From contig DSCM01000022.1 in the NCBI GenBank assembly GCA_011049115.1, forward strand, positions 1 to 34,460: a stretch of DNA of 34,460 nt. The letters run 5' to 3'. The notes under the pieces were generated by a model. That model worked only from the letters and a program-made list of their open reading frames with translations. It ran no database searches and was not told the DNA's origin. This DNA comes from Pseudomonadota bacterium. GTDB taxonomy: Bacteria; Desulfobacterota; Anaeroferrophillalia; Anaeroferrophillales; Tharpellaceae. Made by a program: the position numbers and the translations under genes. Positions 5,949 to 25,755 of this stretch are shown here, piece after piece. Position 1 is the stretch's first letter, and every line of letters starts with the position of its first letter.

Positions 5949-7187
5949 ATGCAATTACGTCCCAATTTTTGTCGTCTTGCGGCGGTCTTCGCCCTAGCCC
6001 TGTCTCTGCTCTGGCAAAATCCGCTCCCGGCCCGGGCCGCGGTGGCCAATTTCTGCTGGTGCGGTTTTTTTGTTTCCACGGAAAGCAACCAACCGGAGCT
6101 TAATCACCAGCTCGGCAAGATTTACCAGGCTCACCTTAAACGTTATGAGGATCCGGATAACGGGGTCATCATCGGCCTGCTCAAAAGCCTGCAATGGGAT
6201 GAGATGACCTATCTTGGCTATCTCGGCATGACTCAGGACGAACCAACGGGGGCTTTGCAGCAGCTGGAAAACCTGGACACCACTTATGGTCTGTTTCTCG
6301 CGCTGGAACAGGTGCTCGCTTTCGCCCCGGATGAAAGCCTGGTTCACGGACAGCCGGTCAAAACCTATGTCGGCTATCTTTTCGGCTCCCTGAATCTTTT
6401 TCATCTGCAAAGCCGCAACCTGCTCTCTTCTCGTCCTTTCTTTGTCATTCAGCAGGAGCGCCAGCCGACAAAGACTTCGGCTATGCTGGACCTGGCCCTG
6501 ACCGAATTGGCCCACAGACTTGAGGATCGAAAAAACCTTTTCACCCGGAAAATGCTGTCCGACTGGCAGGAATTTTTCGGGCTCCCCGGGGAACAGCGCG
6601 ACATTTTGCGCCGGCTCAGCGGGCAGCTCGATGAAACCTTTGGCGTCGCGCCCCTCTGCCCCGGCTGCGTTCGCGTTCAGGGCACGACTCTCAATGAAGA
6701 AACCGCCAATCAGCTTAAAACCTTTATCCGTTATTACTTTAACGCGACCCTGGCCAACCATAGACCGGTAGTGTTTCTCCCAGGTTTCAGTGGCCAGGCG
6801 ACCGAGAGCGTCCATACCCTGGTTACCGCGAACAAGGAAGGTGATGTCGTTTTCAGTGAAGAGTGTCTGGGCGGTTATGGGGATTCAGGACAAACCCGAC
6901 TCTGCCTCAAAGTTCCGGCCCCCAAAAATCTTGTAAAGCTCAGCTTGCGCTGCCTGGTGGAGGAAGAAAACCACCAGGCGGAACAGGAAACCTTTGTCCG
7001 CAGCTACACCAGCCTGCTTGATTTTGCTTTGTTCACAAAAGGGCTTGAGGCGCCCCAGGTTCATTCCCTGAGCAATACCTACCGGCAGCTTCTGACCACA
7101 ACCCGAAAACCTTCCGATCTCTACTATTTCAACAGCGTCATCAATGCCATCACGCAATTTTCGCCGGCGCTGCTGGCCGGCCCCTGA
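5949..7187 (+). CDS. Exported protein of unknown function with CxC and CPGC motifs
   Basis: Predicted exported protein of 412 residues. TTG 5925, which overlaps the upstream stop, would add eight residues. ATG 5949 is preferred because it gives a compact signal peptide (hydrophobic core, then PARAAVA), but neither start has a clear ribosome-binding site. The mature protein begins with an FCWCGFF motif and later carries CPGCVR (around residue 235-240) plus a few further cysteines, so metal binding or disulfides are possible. The rest is mixed helix and strand with no recognised domain. It ends the tight gene run 3952-7187; a 133-base gap separates it from the next gene. Confidence 0.75.
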   Translation: MQLRPNFCRLAAVFALALSLLWQNPLPARAAVANFCWCGFFVSTESNQPELNHQLGKIYQAHLKRYEDPDNGVIIGLLKSLQWDEMTYLGYLGMTQDEPTGALQQLENLDTTYGLFLALEQVLAFAPDESLVHGQPVKTYVGYLFGSLNLFHLQSRNLLSSRPFFVIQQERQPTKTSAMLDLALTELAHRLEDRKNLFTRKMLSDWQEFFGLPGEQRDILRRLSGQLDETFGVAPLCPGCVRVQGTTLNEETANQLKTFIRYYFNATLANHRPVVFLPGFSGQATESVHTLVTANKEGDVVFSEECLGGYGDSGQTRLCLKVPAPKNLVKLSLRCLVEEENHQAEQETFVRSYTSLLDFALFTKGLEAPQVHSLSNTYRQLLTTTRKPSDLYYFNSVINAITQFSPALLAGP

Positions 7188-13728: not shown

Positions 13729-14343
13729 ATGCATATCATGGAAGGTGTCATTTCGGCGCCGGTGCTCTGTACCGGCCTGATCCTGACCTCGGGCGGCACC
13801 GCACTCGGCCTGAAAAAACTCGATTACAGGCAGATGCCCCAGGTGTCGATTCTGACCTCGGCGTTTTTCATCGCTTCATTTATTCATGTTCCCATCGGTC
13901 CATCCAGCGTGCATCTCATTCTCAATGGTATCCTGGGCTTATTTCTGGGCTGGATGGCATTCCCGACGATCCTGACGGCCTTGTTTTTACAAGCCGTGCT
14001 CTTTCAGTTCGGCGGCCTGACCTCACTGGGAGTCAACACTATGAACATTGCCTTGCCGGCCGTACTTTGCGCTTTTCTGTTTCGGCCCGGAATCGGCAGC
14101 TCCAAGGCGATAGTTTCCGTGCCGGCGGCATTCCTGTGCGGTTTCAGCGCGGTGTTATTTACAGCCATCATGGTATCCCTGTCCCTGTTTCTCACCGGTG
14201 AGTCTTTCCTGGGAGTCGCCAAACTGGTAATGCTGGCACATTTGCCGGTAATGATTATCGAGGGTCTGATCACCGTGTTCTGCATAAGATTCATCAAACA
14301 GGTCCGACCGGAAATGTTGGCCGACCTGGAAGCTACCCGATGA
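13729..14343 (+). CDS. cbiM: CbiM/NikM, substrate-binding membrane component of an ECF Co/Ni transporter
   Basis: Inner-membrane protein of 204 residues with about six to seven hydrophobic segments. It begins MHIMEG: in this family the N-terminal Met-His coordinates the metal ion, so the start is certain, and GGAGAG lies upstream. A second conserved histidine lies in GPSSVHLILNG (His62), preceded by HVP (His53). Length and motifs match the CbiM/NikM family; the MHIMEG opening is perhaps more NikM-like. Ni2+ and Co2+ cannot be separated by eye. There is no fused or separate CbiN/NikN. It overlaps cbiQ by ATGA. Confidence 0.93.
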   Translation: MHIMEGVISAPVLCTGLILTSGGTALGLKKLDYRQMPQVSILTSAFFIASFIHVPIGPSSVHLILNGILGLFLGWMAFPTILTALFLQAVLFQFGGLTSLGVNTMNIALPAVLCAFLFRPGIGSSKAIVSVPAAFLCGFSAVLFTAIMVSLSLFLTGESFLGVAKLVMLAHLPVMIIEGLITVFCIRFIKQVRPEMLADLEATR

Positions 14344-15104
14344 TCGAAGAACCTTTTGCTCAAGGCGACTCGCCGCTCCATCGAATCGATCCGCGTTTCC
14401 GGTTGGTCGCAGCCGTCGGTTTTTCGCTGGTGGTGGCCGTTTCCCACCATTTTTCAACCTTGGCCGGAGGCCTGGTTATCGCCGGCGCTCTGCTGTTCGC
14501 AGCCCGCCTCGACCCTTTACCGGTTCTGCGCCGCTTGTGGGTGATAACGAAACTCCTGGCTTTTTTATGGATAATCTTGCCCCTCACCGTTCCAGGGGCC
14601 GACTATTATCAACTGGGTTCGCTGGCCATCAGCCAGCCGGGAGTCACTCTCGCTTTGCAGATTTCTCTCAGGTCTCTGGCCATTCCGGCTTTTTTTATCG
14701 CCCTGGTCGCAACCATGAATTTTTCAGTTCTCGGCCATGCCCTGAAAAGTCTGCTTTTGCCGGATAAATTAGTGCATCTTTTACTGTTCACTTACCGCTA
14801 TATTTTCGTTATTGAACAGGAATATCGGCGCTTGCTGCGGGCCATCCGGGTGCGGGGCTTCCAACCCCGCACCAATCTGCACACTTATCAAACCATCGCC
14901 TACCTGGTGGCCATGCTTTTCGTGCGGGCCGCGGCCCGGTCCGAACGAGTGGAACAGGCCATGCGTTGCCGTGGCTTTGCCGGGCGTTTTTATTGTCTGG
15001 TTGACTACCCAGCCCACCCGCGCCATCGGCGTTTCGCCATAACCATGAGCTTACTGATTTCAGGGTTGGCCTTGCTGGAGTGGGGAAAGATCATTCCGTT
15101 ATGA
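14340..15104 (+). CDS. cbiQ: CbiQ/NikQ, ECF transporter T component
   Basis: Inner-membrane coupling protein of 254 residues that links the metal-binding CbiM to the ATPase. It has four to five hydrophobic segments and two Ala/Arg-Gly coupling-helix motifs, RAIRVRG and QAMRCRG, near residues 165-210. In ECF T components such motifs dock into the ATPase. It starts at the ATGA overlap with cbiM and ends at an ATGA overlap with cbiO, so the three are tightly coupled. Confidence 0.93.
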   Translation: MIEEPFAQGDSPLHRIDPRFRLVAAVGFSLVVAVSHHFSTLAGGLVIAGALLFAARLDPLPVLRRLWVITKLLAFLWIILPLTVPGADYYQLGSLAISQPGVTLALQISLRSLAIPAFFIALVATMNFSVLGHALKSLLLPDKLVHLLLFTYRYIFVIEQEYRRLLRAIRVRGFQPRTNLHTYQTIAYLVAMLFVRAAARSERVEQAMRCRGFAGRFYCLVDYPAHPRHRRFAITMSLLISGLALLEWGKIIPL

Positions 15105-15823
15105 ATAAAAAACCGATTATCGTTTTGCGAAACCTCGGTTTCGCCTATCCTGAATCTCAACCCGTCCTGCGCGACCTGGAATTGTCCGTTTGTCAAGGTG
15201 AGCGAATCGGCCTGATTGCTCCCAACGGCGGCGGCAAAACCACCCTGTTCCACCTGATCGTCGGCCTGCTCAAAGCGCATACCGGAGAGATCGAGATCTT
15301 TGGTCGACCGGCCATCGAGGAGAAGGATTTCGTCGCCGTGCGCCGCCAGGTCGGTTTACTCTTCCAGGATGCCGACGACCAGCTTTTCAGCCCGACGGTG
15401 CTGGAGGATGTGGTTTTCGGCCCCCTAAACCTGGGTAAGAGCCGTGATGAGGCCGTGGCCATGGCCCGGCAAACCCTGGCCCGGCTCGGACTCGAAGGGT
15501 TCGAAACCCGAATCACGACCCGACTTTCCGGCGGCGAAAAACGTCTGGTGGCCCTGGCTGCGGTGCTGGCGATGGAACCCAAGGTCCTGCTGCTCGACGA
15601 ACCGAGCGCCGGCCTGGATGACGCCACCAAGTGCCGCCTGGTCCGCATCCTGCGGGAGATGGAGATCAGCTATCTCGTCGTCTCGCATGAACCGGACTTT
15701 TTGGCTCAGGTGGTCGACAAGACCTACCTGCTCAAGGATAAGTGTCTGCAGGGGCCGACCACCGGATCGCTCGCCGATAACGGCGGCGCAGGCCGGTCGG
15801 TCGGCATGAAATTTCCGTTCTGA
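15101..15823 (+). CDS. cbiO: CbiO/NikO, ECF transporter ATPase
   Basis: ABC-type ATPase of 240 residues powering the CbiMQ transporter from the cytoplasmic side. All motifs are seen: Walker A APNGGGKTT (40-48), Q-loop LLFQDADDQLF, signature LSGGEKR, Walker B VLLLDEPSAGLD and the H-loop VSHEP. The first residue of the Walker A loop is Ala rather than the usual Gly. ATG 15101 is chosen at the ATGA overlap; a GTG at 15080 would add seven residues. The last 30 residues form a polar tail. Confidence 0.95.
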   Translation: MNKKPIIVLRNLGFAYPESQPVLRDLELSVCQGERIGLIAPNGGGKTTLFHLIVGLLKAHTGEIEIFGRPAIEEKDFVAVRRQVGLLFQDADDQLFSPTVLEDVVFGPLNLGKSRDEAVAMARQTLARLGLEGFETRITTRLSGGEKRLVALAAVLAMEPKVLLLDEPSAGLDDATKCRLVRILREMEISYLVVSHEPDFLAQVVDKTYLLKDKCLQGPTTGSLADNGGAGRSVGMKFPF

Positions 15824-16261: not shown

Positions 16262-18414
16262 ATGAAAGACCAGCGCAGGCTTTACAGAAAAACAGAACTC
16301 ATCATCTTGGCCATCACGGCATTTTTGACTTGGTTGCCGCCGGTTGTCAAGGCCACGGAATCACAGAAAGCCATTCCCTCGCCAACCTCGGCGACCAGCG
16401 CCCAGCATCTGCAAGACATGCTGGTTACCGCCGAGAGTCTGACGCTGGGGCTGGAGCAGAGCCCCTCCCGGACCATCATCAAGATTGAAGATTTCGATGT
16501 CGTCGGCGGCTCGAGCAATTTCGAGGATCTGCTCAAGAGTCAGGCGATTTTCGATTTCCGGGGCCAAACCGATCTGATGCCCGACAGCGATACCATGACC
16601 ATGCGCGGCTTTTCCAGCGGTCGCTTCGTGGCCGCCATCGATGGCCTCACCATTCAGAAAACCGGCGGCCGCAAAGGCAAGCACATCGTCGATTACAGCC
16701 TGTTGTCGACCCTGCCCATCGATCGCATCGAGATTACCGCCGGTCCCCATTCCGCCCTTTACGACAGCAAGGCCATCGGCGGCAGCGTCAACCTTGTGAC
16801 CAAGGCTCCGGCCCGGCGCGATACCTTCAAACCCGACTTCAAGCTCAGCGCCGGCTACGGCTCCTACGAGAAACAGGATTACCTCTTAAGCCTGGACGGC
16901 GCCGTCGATTTCGTCACCTACGGCATCAGCCTGCAGAAAACCTCGACCGACGGTTTTCTGCGCCACAGTGAAACCGATATCGAAACCTGCACCGGCAACC
17001 TGGGTTTCGTCCTGCCTCATGACGGCTATCTCAGCCTGTCCGCTTCCCGTTCCAATATCGACCGCGAAGTGCCGGTCAACAACTTTGTCGATGATTATGA
17101 TAATGATTACCCACGGGTCGATGGTGCCGGCTTCGACCCGTGGCAGAATCCCACCTGGGACAAGGAGGCCTGGTCCTACCGGCTCAATTACTTCCAGAAT
17201 CTGTCGGTCGGCCGGGTGTCGGCCGGGGTCTATCGCAGCAAGGAAGACCGCGACCGGGCCTATCTCGACTGGGTCAATGCCCAGGATCATGCCCAGGGTT
17301 TAAAGCATAGTTCGTTCTACACCGAATGGATTCAGGAAGGGGCCCGCCTTCAGGATGAATATCGCTGGAACGACCGGCATTCGACCACCGTCGGCATCGA
17401 GCTGGCCCGTCTTTACGACGGCAGCGACGGCGATGACAAGCGCGTCAACAAAAAGGGCAGCTATCTTCAGCATCAATGGCGGATCGCGGAGGCCCTCGAA
17501 TTGCGGCTCGGTCTGCGGTATGAGGATATCAAAATCTGGGTCAGCAACAGCGGCATTCCGAACCGCGGTTCCTGGATTCGGCGCGAATGGAACCAGCTGG
17601 TACCCAAATCCTATCTCACCTGGAAACTCGACGGCCTGGCCCCGAGCCTGCGCGACACCTCGCTCTCGCTCGGAATCAGCAAGATCTGGCACGCCCCGAT
17701 GCCCACGGCGAATACAATCCCCAGGGCAAGCCGGCCGGCGCCTGGCTGGAGCCGGAACACGGCATGGGTTACGATCTGGTGCTCAACCGACGGCTCTGGG
17801 GGGATGTCGTGCTGATGCTCGACTACTCCTTTTACAAGATCAAGGATTATATCGCCTCCAACAGCCAATACGCGAGGTATTCCGGCTCCTCCGCCGGCAA
17901 CCTGCGTTACAGCGATTACAAAATCAATCTCGACGAGGTTTACCGGCAGGGGCTGGAAATCAATCTGGCCGGCCATCTGAGCAAGGATCTCTCCTTCTAC
18001 CTGACCTATGCCTGGCAGGATTTCGAAAACCAGGGCCACGAGCCCGCCGGCACCACCGAACTCGACGATCGGGCCCGAAACCGGGTGACGGCGGGCCTGC
18101 GTTATCATCTTCTGACCAGGACCGCCTTGAAACTCGACTACGCCTTTCAGGACAAGAAAACCATCGAGGAATCCGAACTGATCGACGACAGCGACCCCGA
18201 CAATCCGATCTACAGCTGGCGGCGGCACGATAACCCGGCCTACCACAGCTTTAATCTCGGGGTCGAGCAGACCTTGTGCAAGGCCTGGGGCCCGGTTCAG
18301 GATGCCAAGATCGAATTCTATATCAAGAACCTCTTCGACGAGGACTATTGCGATGCCCGGGGCTATCCGGCTACCGACCGGACCTTCGGCACCACCTTGA
18401 GTTTCAGAATGTGA
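16262..18414 (+). pseudogene. TonB-dependent outer-membrane receptor, interrupted by a one-base frameshift
   Basis: Outer-membrane active-transport receptor that would be about 717 residues. The signal peptide spans about residues 10-32. A TonB-box-like DMLVTAE segment, a plug domain (SNFEDLL, MRGFSSGRFVAAIDG, RIEITAGPHSALYDSKAIGGSVNLVT) and a beta-barrel follow. The reading frame is lost at about 17692-17698 within ACGCCCCGAT: after SKIWHAP the correct continuation, DAHGEYNPQGK, is in another frame. One added base there restores a single frame to the terminal TTLSFRM. The deletion lies in a short C-run, so a sequencing error is as likely as a real lesion. In context the ligand is probably a Ni/Co complex, a metallophore or a corrinoid. 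Confidence 0.88.
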
Positions 18415-18593
18415 GGCTTTCGTAGCCGCTCCACCTTCCTGGTTGCGGGGTTCCCGCAGTCTGAAGGACAGCACAAGAAAAGACTCCGCGGAGTGGCTGC
18501 CTCGAAGCGGGAGCGGTCAGCGTGCCATCAGCCTCTCAACGATTTTTATCATTGGTTACGAGTTCGTCTCGGTTGATACGACAAGGAGAAAAC

Positions 18594-20297
18594 ATGAAAC
18601 GATTATTGTCTGCCATTGGCGCCCGGCGCGCCTTTTTACCGACAACCAAAAAACTGCTGATCAGCGGTCTGTTGTTACTCTGGACTATCGGCTGTACGCC
18701 GCAGCCCCAAACGACCATCGCCCCCCAGACAACCCCGGGCTCGTTTGCCGTGGTCGGTCTGGGCCCCGGAGACGCCGATCTGGTAACCACGCGGGCGCTG
18801 GAGGCGATCCGCCAGGCGGATCTGGTTTTCTGCAGCGCCAAAACCAAAGAGGAATTATCATCTTACGTCGATTTCACCGGCAAGGAGCTGCGCGACGGTT
18901 ACGGGGTGCTGTTCCGGTATTACGGCAAGGTCTGTCCGGAGAACGCGGATAAACCAAGTGGTGAGTCAGGTAAACCGCGCATGAGCTGCGAGGAATATCA
19001 TCGGCACCAGGCCGAATTCGCCGCCCTGGTGCGGACCGCCGTGGCCGCCGGGCGCCGCGTGGTAATCTTAAGCGGCGGCGACCCGATGATCTACGGCCCG
19101 GATATCTGGAGTCTCAAGGAACTGCATGACCTCGATCCCCAGGTAATTCCCGGACTCAGCGCCTTCAACGCCGCCAACGCCGCCCTGCAGGTACGTCTCG
19201 GCGAGGTGATTCTGACGGCTCCTTTTCAACGGGAGGGTGCCGGCGACAGTATCGAACAATTGGCCGGGCACGAGCGGGCCACCCTGGTCATCTTCATGCC
19301 CCGCGATCTGAAAAAACTTTTCGACCGCCTGGCCGCCGTCTACGCGGCCGAGACTCCGGTGGCCGTGGTCGCCGATGCCGGGGTCGTCGGTCGCGAACAG
19401 GTAACCTTAGGCAGCGTTGCGGGTTTCCAGGCCGACTCGTCGGCGATCGACAGCCGGCGTTCCCTGATCTATGTCGGTCAGGCCCTGGCTACGGCCCAAT
19501 ACCGCCCGGCCCCGCTCCGGACCGCCGGCCGGGGTAAATTCTATCTTGTCAGGGTTGGCCCCGGGGATGCCGATCTCGCCACCCAACGGGCCCTGCAGGT
19601 GATCGAGAAGGCCGATCTGATCTTTGCCCAGGAAAAAATTCGGGATCGATTTCAGGCCTATCTCACCGGCAAACAGGTGCTGACCGCTTATCATCGCCTG
19701 TTCCCTTTTTACGGCAAGGATTGCGCCGCGGTCAAGGCCGAGGAACAGGGCCGGGAACGACGCAGTTGCGAAGAATATCATCGGCAACAGGCAGAATTCG
19801 CCGCCCTGGTCCGGGCCGCGGTGGCTGAGGGCAAGACCGTGGCCATGCTCGACAGCGGCGATCCGATGATCTATGGCCCCGATGCCTGGGCCCTGACCGA
19901 ACTTGCCGATCTCGATACCGAGGTGGTCCCCGGCCTGAGCTGCTTCAACGCCGCCAACGCCGCCCTGCGGGCCGGGGTCACCGAAGGCCGACACAGTCAT
20001 TCGGTGATTTTCGCCTCCGGCTGGTCGGTCGGAGAGATGGCGGTGCACCAGAGCAGCATGGTGCTGTTTACGATGCGCACCGACTTCAAGAAATTCGTTG
20101 ATACCCTGGGCCGCTCCTATGCGGCCGACACTCCGGTGGCCCTGGTCTGCAGTGCCGGTTATGCCGACCGGGAAAAGGTCATACACGGCACCCTGGGAAC
20201 GATTCTCGAGCAGGTCGGCGGTGAGCGGCCGCCGTTTGAGTATCTGCTTTATATCGGGGATTTTCTGCGAGACAGCGTCGACTATCTGAATCGATGA
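18594..20297 (+). CDS. Predicted lipoprotein with two tandem tetrapyrrole (precorrin) methylase domains
   Basis: A 567-residue protein with an unusual layout. AAGGAG precedes ATG 18594. Residues 19-34 form a hydrophobic leader ending WTIGC, a plausible though imperfect lipobox with Cys34. Two homologous domains of the tetrapyrrole methylase (CobI/CobM/CbiH-type, SAM-dependent) fold follow. Domain 1 (about 50-300) has VVGLGPGDADLVT, SGGDPMIYG and IPGLSAFNAANAAL. Domain 2 (about 315-567) has LVRVGPGDADLAT, DSGDPMIYG and VPGLSCFNAANAAL. The GxGPGD and GDP motifs known to bind the methyl donor are kept. Each domain also has a YGKxC...SCEEYHRxQAEFAALVR insert. Such enzymes normally work in the cytoplasm on corrin precursors. 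An envelope location would suggest reuse as a tetrapyrrole or metal-complex binding protein, which is my inference. Confidence 0.85.
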   Translation: MKRLLSAIGARRAFLPTTKKLLISGLLLLWTIGCTPQPQTTIAPQTTPGSFAVVGLGPGDADLVTTRALEAIRQADLVFCSAKTKEELSSYVDFTGKELRDGYGVLFRYYGKVCPENADKPSGESGKPRMSCEEYHRHQAEFAALVRTAVAAGRRVVILSGGDPMIYGPDIWSLKELHDLDPQVIPGLSAFNAANAALQVRLGEVILTAPFQREGAGDSIEQLAGHERATLVIFMPRDLKKLFDRLAAVYAAETPVAVVADAGVVGREQVTLGSVAGFQADSSAIDSRRSLIYVGQALATAQYRPAPLRTAGRGKFYLVRVGPGDADLATQRALQVIEKADLIFAQEKIRDRFQAYLTGKQVLTAYHRLFPFYGKDCAAVKAEEQGRERRSCEEYHRQQAEFAALVRAAVAEGKTVAMLDSGDPMIYGPDAWALTELADLDTEVVPGLSCFNAANAALRAGVTEGRHSHSVIFASGWSVGEMAVHQSSMVLFTMRTDFKKFVDTLGRSYAADTPVALVCSAGYADREKVIHGTLGTILEQVGGERPPFEYLLYIGDFLRDSVDYLNR

Positions 20298-20399: not shown

Positions 20400-21212
20400 A
20401 TGAGACGTAAACCCGTTTTTCTGCTGTGCTTAGTGATTCTGGGACTGGGATTGTTTGTCCGGCCGGTTCTGGCGCATAACCTCTGGCTCAATCCGGACAA
20501 CTATTTTCCGGCGCTCGGCTCGACGGTCAGCATCGGGATCGGTTGGGGACATAAGTATCCCGCCGATCGTAACGACGAAAAACTCAAGGCAGGACGTCTC
20601 GAAGCGATTCAGGCCCTCGCCCCCGACGGGCGGGAAGTAGAACTGGAGAAGGTTTCCGAGACCGAATATCGCCTGAAAATCGACCAGGCCGGAGCTTACG
20701 TCGTCACGGCCCGGATCAAGCCCAGTTTTTTCACGATGACCCCCGAAGGACGCAAATGGGGCAACAAACAGGAAGTCGCCGATGCCGACAAATGCACCAA
20801 TTTCCATCTCGAAGCCAAAACCGTGCTGCAGGCCGGCGCCGGCGCCCGTGACAGTCAACTGACCGGTCAGACCTTGGAGCTGCGGCCGCTCAGCGACCTG
20901 GCCGCTTTGAAGGCCGGGGATAAACTGGTCGTACAGCTATTCTATGCCGGCCAGCCCCTGGCCGGGGCGACCATTAACGCCACCGATGCCGGTTTTGTCG
21001 ATGCGAGCGCGTCCAAGTCCGCCACCAAAGACGCTCATTCCGCCCATCATCATCCGGTGTCCGTGGTTACCGACAGCCAGGGTCGAGCCGAACTCACTCT
21101 GGCCCGCGCCGGTTACTGGCTTTTGCTGTTTTCCCACAAACCGCCTTATCAGGACACCACGATCTGCGATCAGTACCTGTATAACGTCACCTTCAGCTGC
21201 GAAGTGCGCTGA
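20400..21212 (+). CDS. DUF4198 / CbiK(NikK)-type periplasmic metal-uptake protein
   Basis: Periplasmic protein of 270 residues matching the DUF4198 / COG5266 family, which accompanies Co/Ni ECF transporters. The signal peptide ends PVLA, so the mature protein would start His-Asn-Leu-Trp. The opening AHNLWLNPDNYFP and GWGHKYPADR are typical of the family. A His-rich loop, DAHSAHHHPVS, lies near residues 206-216, and the C-terminus ends in a strand-rich domain (ELTLARAGYWLLLFSHKPPY). These histidines likely bind Ni2+ or Co2+. TTGGAGA lies upstream of ATG 20400. It overlaps the permease gene downstream by one base (TGATG). Confidence 0.85.
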   Translation: MRRKPVFLLCLVILGLGLFVRPVLAHNLWLNPDNYFPALGSTVSIGIGWGHKYPADRNDEKLKAGRLEAIQALAPDGREVELEKVSETEYRLKIDQAGAYVVTARIKPSFFTMTPEGRKWGNKQEVADADKCTNFHLEAKTVLQAGAGARDSQLTGQTLELRPLSDLAALKAGDKLVVQLFYAGQPLAGATINATDAGFVDASASKSATKDAHSAHHHPVSVVTDSQGRAELTLARAGYWLLLFSHKPPYQDTTICDQYLYNVTFSCEVR

Positions 21213-22621
21213 TGAAAAAGGCGTTGAACGGGAAGGACCTGCGCCGCGAGATCGGCTGGTTTTCGGCGACCATTCTGGTGATCGCCAACATGATCGGCAC
21301 CGGGATTTTCACGACCTCAGGCTTCATCATGGCCGAGCTTCAGGATGCCCGCGCCCTGCTCTTATGCTGGCTGGGCGGAGGTCTGTTCGCCCTCTGTGGC
21401 GCTCTCTGCTATGCCGAGCTGGGGGCCCGTTATCCCCAGGCCGGAGGTGAATATATCTTTCTGCGCGAGGCTTTCGGCAAGCTCCCGGCCTTTCTCTCCG
21501 GCTGGATTTCCCTGATTGTCGGCTTCTCGGCGCCGATCGCGGCCGCGGCCATGGCTTTGGCCGGCTATACCTTCCAGGCCGCGGCCCTGCCGACGGGTCG
21601 GGTTTTCAGTCTTCGACTGGGAGATTTTACCCTGGCAACCCTGTCCCGGCCAAATCTGCTGGCAATTGCAGCGATCTGTGTTTTCTCGCTGATCCATTAC
21701 CACAGCTTGCGTCTCGGCAGTTGGGTGCAGAATTTTCTGACCCTGTTCAAGATCGTTCTGATTTTATTTTTTATCACCGCCGGTCTTTGCTCGGACCAGG
21801 GCTCCTTTCACCACTGCGAAGTTGTCGGCGGGCAGGCCTGGTCCGCCGGCAACTTCGCAGTGGCCCTGATTTTTGTCTCATTTTCCTACAGTGGCTGGAA
21901 TGCCGCCGCCTATCTCGGCTCCGAGATTGTCAGACCCCAGCGCAACCTTCCCCGCGCCCTGATCGTCGGCACCCTGGTGGTGATGGTTTTTTACCTGCTG
22001 CTGAACACGGTCTATCTCTATGCCGTGCCCGCTCCGGAGATGGCCGGGGTCATGGAAATCGGGGCGCGGGCGGCGGCCAATCTCTTCGGGGTCAGCCACA
22101 GCCGCTGGTTCAGCGGGGCCGTGGCCCTGGGCATCCTTTCGGTCTTAAGCGCCATGATCATAACCGGGCCGCGGATCTACTATGCCATGGCCCGCGACGG
22201 CATCTTTTTCCCGGCATTCGGCAGTTTGAACCCCGAACACCGGACCCCGGCGGCGGCGATTTTTCTTCAGGCCGGGCTCGCCGCCCTGATGGTGCTTTCG
22301 GCCTCTTTCGAAACCCTGTTGATCTACATCGGCTTTACCTTGTCGTTGTTCGCCTCGCTGACGGTGATAGGACTCTTGCGGATTCGTCGGCGTGACGGCG
22401 TCCCGGCCGGCACCGGTTACCGCACCTGGGGCTATCCCGTTACCCCGTGGCTTTTCATCCTCGGCAACCTCTGGATTATCAGCTTTTCCGTATGTCACCG
22501 GCCGGTCGCGGCCCTGATCGGCTTTGGCACCATCGCCGCCGGCCTGATTATCTATCTCGGTTTTGCCCGGCGGCACGCATCAATTCAAATCGCCCGGGCA
22601 AAGACCTTTGCCCGAGAATAG
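21212..22621 (+). CDS. APC-superfamily amino-acid permease
   Basis: Inner-membrane transporter of 469 residues with about twelve hydrophobic segments. The family opening is clear: NMIGTGIFTTSGF (the unwound substrate-binding part of segment 1), and later CYAELGARYPQAGGEY and FVSFSYSGWNAAAYLGSE. It resembles the LAT/cationic amino-acid exchanger subgroup. The substrate cannot be read from sequence. It is translationally coupled to the DUF4198 gene by TGATG, an odd partner for an amino-acid carrier. It might move a metal ligand such as histidine or a metallophore, but this is speculation from context. Confidence 0.92.
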   Translation: MKKALNGKDLRREIGWFSATILVIANMIGTGIFTTSGFIMAELQDARALLLCWLGGGLFALCGALCYAELGARYPQAGGEYIFLREAFGKLPAFLSGWISLIVGFSAPIAAAAMALAGYTFQAAALPTGRVFSLRLGDFTLATLSRPNLLAIAAICVFSLIHYHSLRLGSWVQNFLTLFKIVLILFFITAGLCSDQGSFHHCEVVGGQAWSAGNFAVALIFVSFSYSGWNAAAYLGSEIVRPQRNLPRALIVGTLVVMVFYLLLNTVYLYAVPAPEMAGVMEIGARAAANLFGVSHSRWFSGAVALGILSVLSAMIITGPRIYYAMARDGIFFPAFGSLNPEHRTPAAAIFLQAGLAALMVLSASFETLLIYIGFTLSLFASLTVIGLLRIRRRDGVPAGTGYRTWGYPVTPWLFILGNLWIISFSVCHRPVAALIGFGTIAAGLIIYLGFARRHASIQIARAKTFARE

Positions 22622-22678: not shown

Positions 22679-22753
22679 ATGAAACGAGAATACAACCCGT
22701 CAACCCGTCAACTGGCAACCGTTAATTATCAAGGAGGAGAAAACCATGTTTAA
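22679..22753 (+). CDS. Possible 24-residue leader peptide overlapping the receptor start
   Basis: ATG 22679 is preceded by AAGAGGAAAC, a good ribosome-binding site, and opens a 24-codon frame (MKREYNPSTRQLATV...) that ends at TAA 22751-22753, eight bases past the start of the receptor gene. The ribosome-binding site of the receptor lies inside it. This arrangement could couple or regulate receptor translation. It is not proven to be translated. Confidence 0.35.
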   Translation: MKREYNPSTRQLATVNYQGGENHV

Positions 22754-25124
22754 AAGTTGGATACTGCTAAATCATTGCAAATTAATGCGGGAGCGAGCCC
22801 CGCAATCCAAAGAGCCTTTACGGCCCGCAAATAAGTCCGCTTATCAGAACATTTTCCGGTTGTTGCTGTTGAAAAAAATGTTGAAAAAAAACAAAAACAT
22901 GACCTGTAAGGTACTGATCGTCTGCGCGGCGCTGCTCCTGCCGCTCACCGCCGCCGGGCCGGGGGTCGCCGGGGAAGCTGCCGCCGGCGGCGAACCACCC
23001 GTTACCCTGGAGACGATGACCGTCAGGGATGTGTTGGCGGCCCCGACCCGGCAGGAGGGTGACCTGCTCTACACCGGTACCGAGGTCACCGCCGCCGGCA
23101 TCGAGCTGGCCGGCAGCAAGGCCGCTTCCAGCGCTTTCGCCACCCTCGACATCCTGCCGGGCATCAACGTGGAGCTGAAAGATCCCTTCGGCATCAGCGG
23201 CGCGAATGTCCGCATCCGCGGGATTTCAAGCGCGAAAGTCGGAATGTCGGTCGAAGGCCTGCCGAACTACGGCATCATGGGCATCGGCCCGCGGGACTAT
23301 CTCTACGACATGGAAAACATGGAGTCCATCGGTCTCTACAAGGGCGCCGCGCCGCCGGGGCTCGGCACTGGTGACGGCAACACCGGCGGCACCGTCGGTC
23401 TCAACTGGCGCCGGCCGACCGACGAGTTCGGCGCCATTCTGAGTCAGCAGATCGGTAACTACGATGCCCGGCGCAGTTTCCTGCGGCTCGATTCCGGTCA
23501 ACTGCCCACCGGCACCGCCGGTTTTCTTTCTTATTCCTACAGCGAAGTCGACAAGTGGAAGGGCGCTGGCGATCTCGGGCCCCGGAATCACGTCACCGCC
23601 GGCCTCACCCAGACGCTGGGTGAGCGTTTCAAAATCGAGATATTCTACAATTACAACAACATAGAATCCCATGACTTCGATTCCCTGAGCTATGCCGAAA
23701 CCAAAGCCCTCAAGCACACCTATCGCCGCGACTACAACCAACACCGCACCGGCAACCCGGTCCTCGACGCCGACTACTATGACTATCACCGGGGCGACTA
23801 CGAAAACACCGAGTTCATGACCATCGCCAGCTTCACCGCCGCGCCGGGGCACGTCTTCAGCCTCAAACCTTACTATGCGCAAGAGGATAAATCGAATCTC
23901 GACGGCGCGGCCGACAAAGTAACCGACCTGGAACGCCTGGGCGCCGTCGGCGAGTACCGCGGTGAGATTGCCGGCTGCAGCATTTCCGCCGGCTACTGGT
24001 ATGAGTCCCACGACCTACAGAAATACGTCCGGGCCAACCAGATCACCGCCACCGGCCGCGTCTACAAGGGCTGGAAATACCTGACCGAAAATGACGGCCA
24101 CGGTGATATTCACAGCCCCTGGCTGCAGCTCAGCCGCCGCTTCGGCAACTTCAGCCTCCAGGCGGGAATCAAATACTTCTCCTATACCGAACCGGGCAGC
24201 ACCGCTTACAAAGGCAGCGCCGCCGGCGGCACCCCGTCATCCTACCATGCCGCTCTGAACCACAACCAGGGTGAGGACTCCGACCTGAGCCTCAAGGAAA
24301 TGACCTTTGACGAATGGCTGCCGAACCTGGCCCTGGGCTATCGGCTGACCCCCAAGCTGGAACTGTACGCCAACTATGGCCGCACCTACATGCGTCCCTA
24401 CGCCTATGTGCCCCTGGCGACCACCTATGCCGGCAACCGGGCCGCCTTCAAAGCCGCCGGCATAACCCTGCAGAATATCTTCGATGAGTGGAAGATGGAA
24501 ACCTCCGATAATTTCGATATCGGCTGCCGCTGGCGCGGCGAAAGGTTCGACTTCACCCCGTCCATTTTCTACGCCAAGCACCATGACCTGCTGGTCAACG
24601 CCTTCGACCCCCGGGTCGGGGTCAACTATGACCAGAACCTCGGCGACGCCACCGCCTGGGGCGCCGAGCTGGAATTCAACCTCTACCCCATCGACAACCT
24701 CGTTTTCTTTTTCAACCCGAGCTATACGAGACTCGAGTTCGACGACGACTTCGTACGCGGAACCACAGTGATCCAGGTCAAGGGCAATCAGTACCCCGAC
24801 ACCCCGAAAATGCTGGTCAAGGCGGGATTCCTCTGGACTATCGGCAGTCTGAAGGTGGCGCCGACGGTAAAATACGTCGGTCGGCGCTACAGTACCGCGC
24901 AACATACCGACCCGATTTCAGCCTACACCACCGCCGACCTGGCCCTGAGTTATACCCTGCCACGGTTTGCCTGGTGTAAAGAGCTGGCCGTCGGACTGGA
25001 TATCAACAACCTGTTCGATAAAAAATACATCGGCGCCATCAGCGCTTCCGACGACGGCGACGGGGCCACCTATAATCCCGGCACGCCGTTTTCCGCCATC
25101 GCCTCGTTGAGCGCGAAGTTCTGA
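22746..25124 (+). CDS. TonB-dependent outer-membrane receptor
   Basis: Outer-membrane receptor of 792 residues, intact. A strong AAGGAGGAG fixes ATG 22746, but the hydrophobic signal core appears only at about residues 52-76 (TCKVLIVCAALLLPLTAA). The signal therefore has an unusual 50-residue basic leader; an internal ATG at codon 45 or 52 would give a normal signal. TonB-box-like ETMTVRD follows, then the plug (ANVRIRGISSAKVGMSVEG, NTGGTVGLNW), a long beta-barrel and a final Phe (SLSAKF) that serves as the barrel-assembly signal. It lies in the Ni/Co uptake locus, so a metal chelate or corrinoid is the likely cargo. It is not a near copy of the receptor at 16262. Confidence 0.92.
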   Translation: MFKSWILLNHCKLMRERAPQSKEPLRPANKSAYQNIFRLLLLKKMLKKNKNMTCKVLIVCAALLLPLTAAGPGVAGEAAAGGEPPVTLETMTVRDVLAAPTRQEGDLLYTGTEVTAAGIELAGSKAASSAFATLDILPGINVELKDPFGISGANVRIRGISSAKVGMSVEGLPNYGIMGIGPRDYLYDMENMESIGLYKGAAPPGLGTGDGNTGGTVGLNWRRPTDEFGAILSQQIGNYDARRSFLRLDSGQLPTGTAGFLSYSYSEVDKWKGAGDLGPRNHVTAGLTQTLGERFKIEIFYNYNNIESHDFDSLSYAETKALKHTYRRDYNQHRTGNPVLDADYYDYHRGDYENTEFMTIASFTAAPGHVFSLKPYYAQEDKSNLDGAADKVTDLERLGAVGEYRGEIAGCSISAGYWYESHDLQKYVRANQITATGRVYKGWKYLTENDGHGDIHSPWLQLSRRFGNFSLQAGIKYFSYTEPGSTAYKGSAAGGTPSSYHAALNHNQGEDSDLSLKEMTFDEWLPNLALGYRLTPKLELYANYGRTYMRPYAYVPLATTYAGNRAAFKAAGITLQNIFDEWKMETSDNFDIGCRWRGERFDFTPSIFYAKHHDLLVNAFDPRVGVNYDQNLGDATAWGAELEFNLYPIDNLVFFFNPSYTRLEFDDDFVRGTTVIQVKGNQYPDTPKMLVKAGFLWTIGSLKVAPTVKYVGRRYSTAQHTDPISAYTTADLALSYTLPRFAWCKELAVGLDINNLFDKKYIGAISASDDGDGATYNPGTPFSAIASLSAKF

Positions 25125-25263: not shown

Positions 25264-25755
25264 ATGAGGTGGTGGTTACTGTATCTGTTACTTTGTCTGT
25301 CGATCCTGACCCATGCGCCCGCCGTCTGCTGGGCGCATGGGGTTGAGGGCTATCTGGAGAAGATTGAGGGAGTTTGCGCCTGGGCCAATTATGACGACGG
25401 CGAACCGATGGCCTACGCCGCCGTCGAGGTCAGGCTGGAGGGGGCCAAGTTAGCCTTTCAGACCGGGCGCACCGATCGCAACGGTTGTTTCCTTTTCCGT
25501 CCCGACGGCCCCGGTCGCTGGCAGGTAGTCGTCAACGACGGCATGGGTCACCGTCTGGCCCTCGCCTACGAAATGGCGCTGGATCCGACCGCCGTCCCGG
25601 CGGAGCCGCCAGCCCGCACCCATGACGGCTGTCTGACCCGAAGCCTCAAGATTATCACGGGGCCGGCCGTCATCTTCGGCCTCTGCGGTTTTTTCTACGG
25701 CTGGCGGGCCCGGCGCCACAACCTGCCCCAAAGAGAACGACAGCCGGAATCATAG
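25264..25755 (+). CDS. CbiL/NikL-type membrane-anchored Co/Ni uptake accessory protein
   Basis: A 163-residue exported protein with a signal peptide ending CWA and a mature start at His-Gly-Val-Glu. The central domain is a beta-sandwich of the carboxypeptidase-regulatory type (GEPMAYAAVEVRLEG, FQTGRTDRNGCFLFRPDGPGRWQV, NDGMGHR). This pattern is characteristic of the NikL/CbiL accessory proteins of nickel/cobalt ECF transporters. One transmembrane helix at about residues 128-148 and a basic tail anchor it in the inner membrane. AAGGAAAGG precedes the ATG. It is the last gene of the metal locus and is convergent with cheB. Confidence 0.8.
   Translation: MRWWLLYLLLCLSILTHAPAVCWAHGVEGYLEKIEGVCAWANYDDGEPMAYAAVEVRLEGAKLAFQTGRTDRNGCFLFRPDGPGRWQVVVNDGMGHRLALAYEMALDPTAVPAEPPARTHDGCLTRSLKIITGPAVIFGLCGFFYGWRARRHNLPQRERQPES

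Follow-up and report, generated by a model that had tools for sequence, protein, structure and literature searches.

A predicted exported branch of the tetrapyrrole methylase superfamily linked to TonB-dependent receptors and cobalt/nickel-associated genes in Desulfobacterota

The stretch of DNA analysed here, called the window, comprises 34,460 nucleotides of contig DSCM01000022.1 from a Tharpellaceae genome of the Desulfobacterota (assembly GCA_011049115.1). Profile matches identify a CbiM-CbiQ-CbiO cobalt/nickel ECF transporter (positions 13729 to 15823), followed on the same forward strand by a TonB-dependent receptor (16262 to 18414), the ORF under study (18594 to 20297), a secreted DUF4198 protein (20400 to 21212; Pfam ID PF10670, E value 7e-38), an APC-superfamily permease (21212 to 22621), a second TonB-dependent receptor (22746 to 25124), and a small secreted protein (25264 to 25755). 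The nearest solved structures to the permease are the y+LAT, b0,+AT, and LAT exchangers, and the second receptor is of the type that adjoins exported methylases at loci L051, L056, and L058. The small secreted protein, with a predicted mature N-terminus of HG and weak similarity to DUF4198 and CarboxypepD_reg, recurs in related cassettes. The initial annotation had placed the gene between a TonB receptor and a periplasmic metal-uptake protein, which matches the TonB receptor found upstream and the DUF4198 protein found downstream. The DUF4198 protein also matches two structures (PDB IDs 9mhk and 9mhi, E value 7e-21) that bear the deposited name phosphoribosylglycinamide formyltransferase, which was probably carried over.

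The ORF encodes 567 residues from an ATG at 18594, which is preceded by an AAGGAG ribosome-binding site (gacaaggagaaaacATG). The frame stays open upstream as far as a GTG at 18522, and the ATG is taken as the start because of this site. A true start located after the leader, which the initial annotation had named as a possible objection, is contradicted by the conserved leaders of the relatives. The two tandem tetrapyrrole methylase domains described there are recovered by the Pfam TP_methylase family (PF00590; E value 2.4e-75, 253.5 bits against a cut-off of 27.8) in two stretches, domain 1 at 18738 to 19493 (residues about 49 to 300, with the Cys pair C114/C132 and W172) and domain 2 at 19524 to 20279 (residues about 311 to 562, with C377/C392 and W432). 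The AlphaFold2 model (pLDDT 76.7, pTM 0.79) is confident outside the leader, and its Foldseek matches are CobM, CbiF, CysG, and SUMT structures, the best with an E value of 5e-15 (PDB IDs 3nei/4e16), each alignment spanning one domain length of about 260 columns. The protein is thus predicted to have the two-lobed CobM/CysG fold of the TP_methylase superfamily.

The best-scoring NCBIfam model is CobM/CbiF (TIGR01465; E value 1e-49), whose score of 169 bits is below its equivalog cut-off of 259.65, and CysG/CobA SUMT (TIGR01469) gives 136.8 bits, below the equivalog-domain cut-off of 185. Nearly all other NCBIfam equivalogs also score under their cut-offs. CbiE (TIGR02467) reaches 107 bits against 92.9, but this score is summed over four stretches of the tandem protein, the best of which covers part of the model, and the single-domain relatives score well under the CbiE cut-off. 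No CbiT gene lies beside the ORF.

Residues 1 to 34 (18594 to 18695) form a predicted lipoprotein signal peptide (MKRLLSAIGARRAFLPTTKKLLISGLLLLWTIGC), with K2 and R3 in the n-region and the lipobox WTIGC, the Cys of which is residue 34 and lies within the first 35 residues. The motif fits what we take to be the PROSITE lipobox pattern. By established sorting rules, a Thr at position +2 after the lipobox Cys directs a lipoprotein to the outer membrane, so the window protein would be expected there. Among related ORFs of the same phylum, read from the DNA, a hydrophobic leader precedes the domain in 43 of 44; the leaderless exceptions are L078 and a copy in genome G378 (L060/L079), the latter left out of the 44. 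Cytoplasmic paralogues start at or near the domain or are signal-less within fused enzymes, and no convincing leader was seen in these controls. Most relatives have SPase I-type signals, with a clear lipobox only in the window, L051, and L059, and the lipid anchor is not conserved in the family but special to the window copy and a few others. The lipoprotein prediction of the initial annotation therefore holds for the lipobox, which is valid, and for the leader and export, whereas lipidation is no family trait. A chance lipobox was rejected as regards export, the leaders being conserved. In L054, a DUF4198 domain with its own signal peptide is naturally fused in front of the methylase domain, and in four relatives a secreted Oxidored_molyb-like domain lies ahead of it (L071, 2163 to 3908; L075, 7241 to 9637; L076, 7747 to 9585 and 11602 to 13350). 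The conserved leaders, the fusions to other secreted domains, and the cassette make the export of the methylase-fold protein a well-supported prediction.

Tandem relatives with 53 to 62% identity were found in Desulfonema magnum, in Desulfocarbo indianensis (L011, identical to L050), and in further genomes of a phylum-wide sample, and genome G187 holds a second tandem copy (L048) besides L050. Single-domain relatives are commoner than tandem ones. Of the 395 genomes sampled, about 39, among them the genome of the window, have a match below 1e-20, and the 15 sampled from the same family as the window have none, making the distribution patchy. Plasmid records gave only cytoplasmic CbiF/CysG-type matches, with about 26 to 31% identity among the matches listed. 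A tree was built from 51 exported and 11 cytoplasmic domains, and in it a single branch sets off the exported ones (support 92/81, not fully starred). This comparison, which the initial annotation had proposed against CobI, CobM, and CbiH, sets the exported proteins apart from CobA/CysG, CbiF, CbiL, and CbiH. Within the tandem proteins, the first and the second domains form two sister clades (87/98), so a single duplication is the probable origin of the tandem form. Tetrapyrrole methylases are homodimers, and the tandem is therefore probably a built-in dimer. A literature search, which covered few subscription journals, found no description of exported or periplasmic tetrapyrrole methylases or of FmdE or DUF4198 together with TonB receptors. 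The proteins appear to represent an exported branch of a cytoplasmic superfamily that recurs across the phylum and for which no description was found.

The SAM-binding motifs GxGPGD and GDP, called intact in the initial annotation, are present in both domains of the window protein, domain 2 reading RVGPGD. Using CysG residue numbers that we take to mark the SAM loops and catalytic sites, the exported domains keep G224 (51/51), G302 (51/51), D303 (45/51), P328 (49/51), G329 (51/51), and G411 (50/51). By motif, the second Gly of GxG is kept in 51/51, the G and D of GDP in 51/51 and 45/51, and the G of PG in 51/51. Mean conservation at the SAM positions is 0.66 in the exported domains versus 0.62 in the cytoplasmic enzymes. 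The catalytic Asp248 and Lys270 of CysG are not kept, the window domains having S/Q and M/R. The position after the GDP motif has Trp in place of Glu in 43/51 exported versus 0/11 cytoplasmic domains, and Cys pairs are present in 14/14 tandem versus 0/11 control domains. As the protein is predicted to be exported, the paired Cys may form disulfides or bind metal. A binding role for the reused fold is plausible; the SAM loops, being conserved and not decayed, leave some probability to methylation or to the binding of a SAM-like ligand.

The cassette was compared across 37 exported-methylase loci, picked on methylase similarity alone, several coming from one genome and some being cut by contig ends, and 21 loci of cytoplasmic paralogues. 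A TonB receptor lies within 6 kb in 32/37 exported versus 1/21 control loci, and within the same distance DUF4198 is found in 21/37 versus 0/21, an APC exchanger-type permease in 15/37 versus 0/21, and the small secreted protein in 12/37 versus 0/21. Another contig of the window's genome (G000 contig 31; L067, 1 to 4932) has a second cassette, in which a TonB receptor, DUF4198, and a PepSY-like membrane protein are followed by an exported-type methylase that is truncated at the contig end. In Desulfonema magnum, five Acido-Lenti-1 RNA matches (L010, 3861 to 15177) surround the genes of the cassette.

The TonB receptor upstream of the ORF belongs to the FCYXU-type family (NF049945) and is split into two ORFs (16262 to 17815 and 17587 to 18414) by a frame change near 17698 (window positions 17600 to 17780; HAP / PDAHGEYNPQG), which is either an error in sequencing or a frameshift of recent origin, since the relatives read through. 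Ten receptors beside exported methylases (L010 at 3159 and 7810, L062 at 8606, L054, L066, L073, L078, L080, L083, and L084) show a mid-barrel in-frame TGA at PCP[U]DYYWWARC or CxxU and are probable selenocysteine receptors. They fit the NF049945 (FCYXU) and NF049947 (PCPU) models and the selenocysteine TonB receptors described previously (PMC12013277; see also PMC13188914), for which we found no published link to an exported methylase. The window receptor, like that of Desulfocarbo, has Asp/His and neither Cys nor selenocysteine at the motif site, making it a non-selenocysteine relative of NF049945 that likewise adjoins an exported methylase; selB is present in the window's genome. The PCPU-type receptors pair with one methylase subclade, so that the receptor type tracks the subclade.

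Several features connect the cassette to metals. A DUF4198 protein has been described as a secreted nickel binder with an N-terminal His and a Kd of 18 nM (PMC12537917), and the window DUF4198 has a predicted mature start at HNLW (cleavage between A and HNLWLN), matching that His. In Desulfocarbo, a cobalamin riboswitch (L011, 7339 to 7529; 103.8 bits) lies directly upstream of the TonB receptor and tandem methylase pair. This is the only one of the scanned cassettes with a directly upstream cobalamin riboswitch, and the window has none even at a relaxed threshold, so such a riboswitch was rejected as the general cassette regulator. In L053, about 3 kb downstream from an exported methylase, a further cobalamin riboswitch (minus strand, 6729 to 6920) precedes what is probably a gene for a BchI/ChlI-like chelatase. 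For NikR, the delta-proteobacterial site type (PMC545781) was searched as GTGTTAC-N12-15-GTAACAC or inverted with up to two mismatches; 652 kb of cassette loci gave three weak two-mismatch matches, no more than controls and none convincing. The window's genome carries cytoplasmic cbi genes elsewhere, with a riboswitch of their own, and the exported protein is therefore neither the missing corrin enzyme nor required as a corrin-ring methylase. Taken together, DUF4198, CbiMQO, the TonB receptors, and the one cobalamin riboswitch support a link to metal or tetrapyrrole uptake. Of the initial interpretation, export and this uptake context are retained, and lipoprotein status is shared with only a few relatives.

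The reading we prefer, to which we give an even chance, is that the protein is a periplasmic, outer-membrane-tethered partner of the TonB receptor in cobalt/nickel acquisition, handling a cobalt or nickel chelate, possibly a tetrapyrrole. It draws on the export signals, the family, the cassette, and the conserved loops read in the sequences; the ligand, the transfer steps, and the absence of methylation are what we infer from them. The TonB receptor would import a metal complex, and the two fused domains, as a built-in version of the usual homodimer, would bind its organic part in their cleft; this would most likely be a corrinoid or other metal tetrapyrrole, or else another cobalt/nickel chelate. 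The methylase-fold protein would then hand on the organic part or its metal, the metal would be held by the proteins with N-terminal His (DUF4198 and the small one), and the freed parts would cross the inner membrane by way of CbiMQO and the APC permease. This is suggested by the leaders and secreted fusions, the cassette counts against controls, the nickel-binding DUF4198, the Desulfocarbo riboswitch, the receptor type tracking the subclade, the genome's own cytoplasmic cbi set, and the branch-specific Trp and Cys pairs. However, the SAM-loop residues, as conserved as in the cytoplasmic enzymes, argue against an abandoned SAM pocket, the single direct riboswitch and the lack of a NikR site in the searched loci argue against this reading, and a permease of the amino-acid type would be unable to carry a tetrapyrrole.

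An active periplasmic SAM-dependent methylase, with the APC permease swapping SAM for SAH and an imported or exported metal tetrapyrrole or metallophore as substrate, seems unlikely, although it draws some probability from the conserved SAM-loop glycines and GDP/PG motifs and from the APC gene, which directly adjoins the methylase gene in many loci and whose nearest solved relatives (y+LAT and b0,+AT) are obligate amino-acid exchangers. The APC superfamily also includes the yeast SAM permease Sam3. However, 22/37 loci, some of them cut by contig ends, have no APC gene, the SUMT-specific CysG residues D248 and K270 are not kept, and we know of no periplasmic SAM pool. Slightly less probable, and purely inferential, is a SAM pocket reused for an opine- or nicotianamine-type metallophore, the aminobutyrate arm of which derives from SAM, with the APC permease taking up the amino-acid-like ligand after nickel/cobalt release. 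Such a ligand would suit the conserved SAM loops, the metal-binding neighbours, and the amino-acid-type permease, but known relatives of the fold bind tetrapyrroles, peptides, or RNA, and no genes for metallophore synthesis came to notice.

Other exported branches adjoin PBP_like_2 solute-binding proteins, FmdE, Oxidored_molyb-like fusions, and CcsA-like genes, which suggests that the family serves more than one ligand. It is a little more doubtful still that the whole is an envelope system related to molybdenum/tungsten or heme, with the cobalt/nickel cassette as only one of its branches, since the window's tandem branch has DUF4198 and CbiMQO and lacks those genes. A cytoplasmic corrin or siroheme methylase with a misassigned start and a chance hydrophobic stretch is highly improbable: the domain family is cytoplasmic elsewhere, but this reading was rejected on the leader comparison (43/44 against the cytoplasmic paralogues), and the secreted fusions, the TonB/DUF4198 linkage, and the separate cytoplasmic cbi methylases of the same genome also speak against it.

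An exported branch of a corrin- and heme-synthesis superfamily, tied to TonB receptors, some of the selenocysteine type, and to nickel/cobalt-binding proteins, points to a possible uncharacterised route for scarce cobalt, nickel, or corrinoids in sulfidic habitats. The selenocysteine TonB receptors would gain a partner and a testable substrate class. The conserved loops furthermore raise the question of SAM-type chemistry in the periplasm, which, if true, would place SAM chemistry outside the cytoplasm.

Among known systems, the CobM/CbiF precorrin-4 C11-methyltransferase, the best NCBIfam and Foldseek/PDB match, shares the two-lobed fold and SAM loops, whereas the window protein is predicted to be exported, is duplicated, lies beside TonB and DUF4198 genes, and has Trp at the Glu-type position after the GDP motif. 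The CysG/CobA uroporphyrinogen-III methyltransferase (SUMT) has the same fold and most SAM-loop residues, and differs from the window protein, which is on a separate, exported branch without the catalytic Asp248/Lys270. The DUF4198/NikK-type secreted nickel-binding proteins share the cassette and one natural fusion (L054) but have another fold, being partners and not homologues. The periplasmic cobaltochelatase CbiK-P of Desulfovibrio vulgaris is a precedent for the relocation of a tetrapyrrole-enzyme relative to the periplasm of a sulfate reducer, although it belongs to another family and catalyses another reaction.
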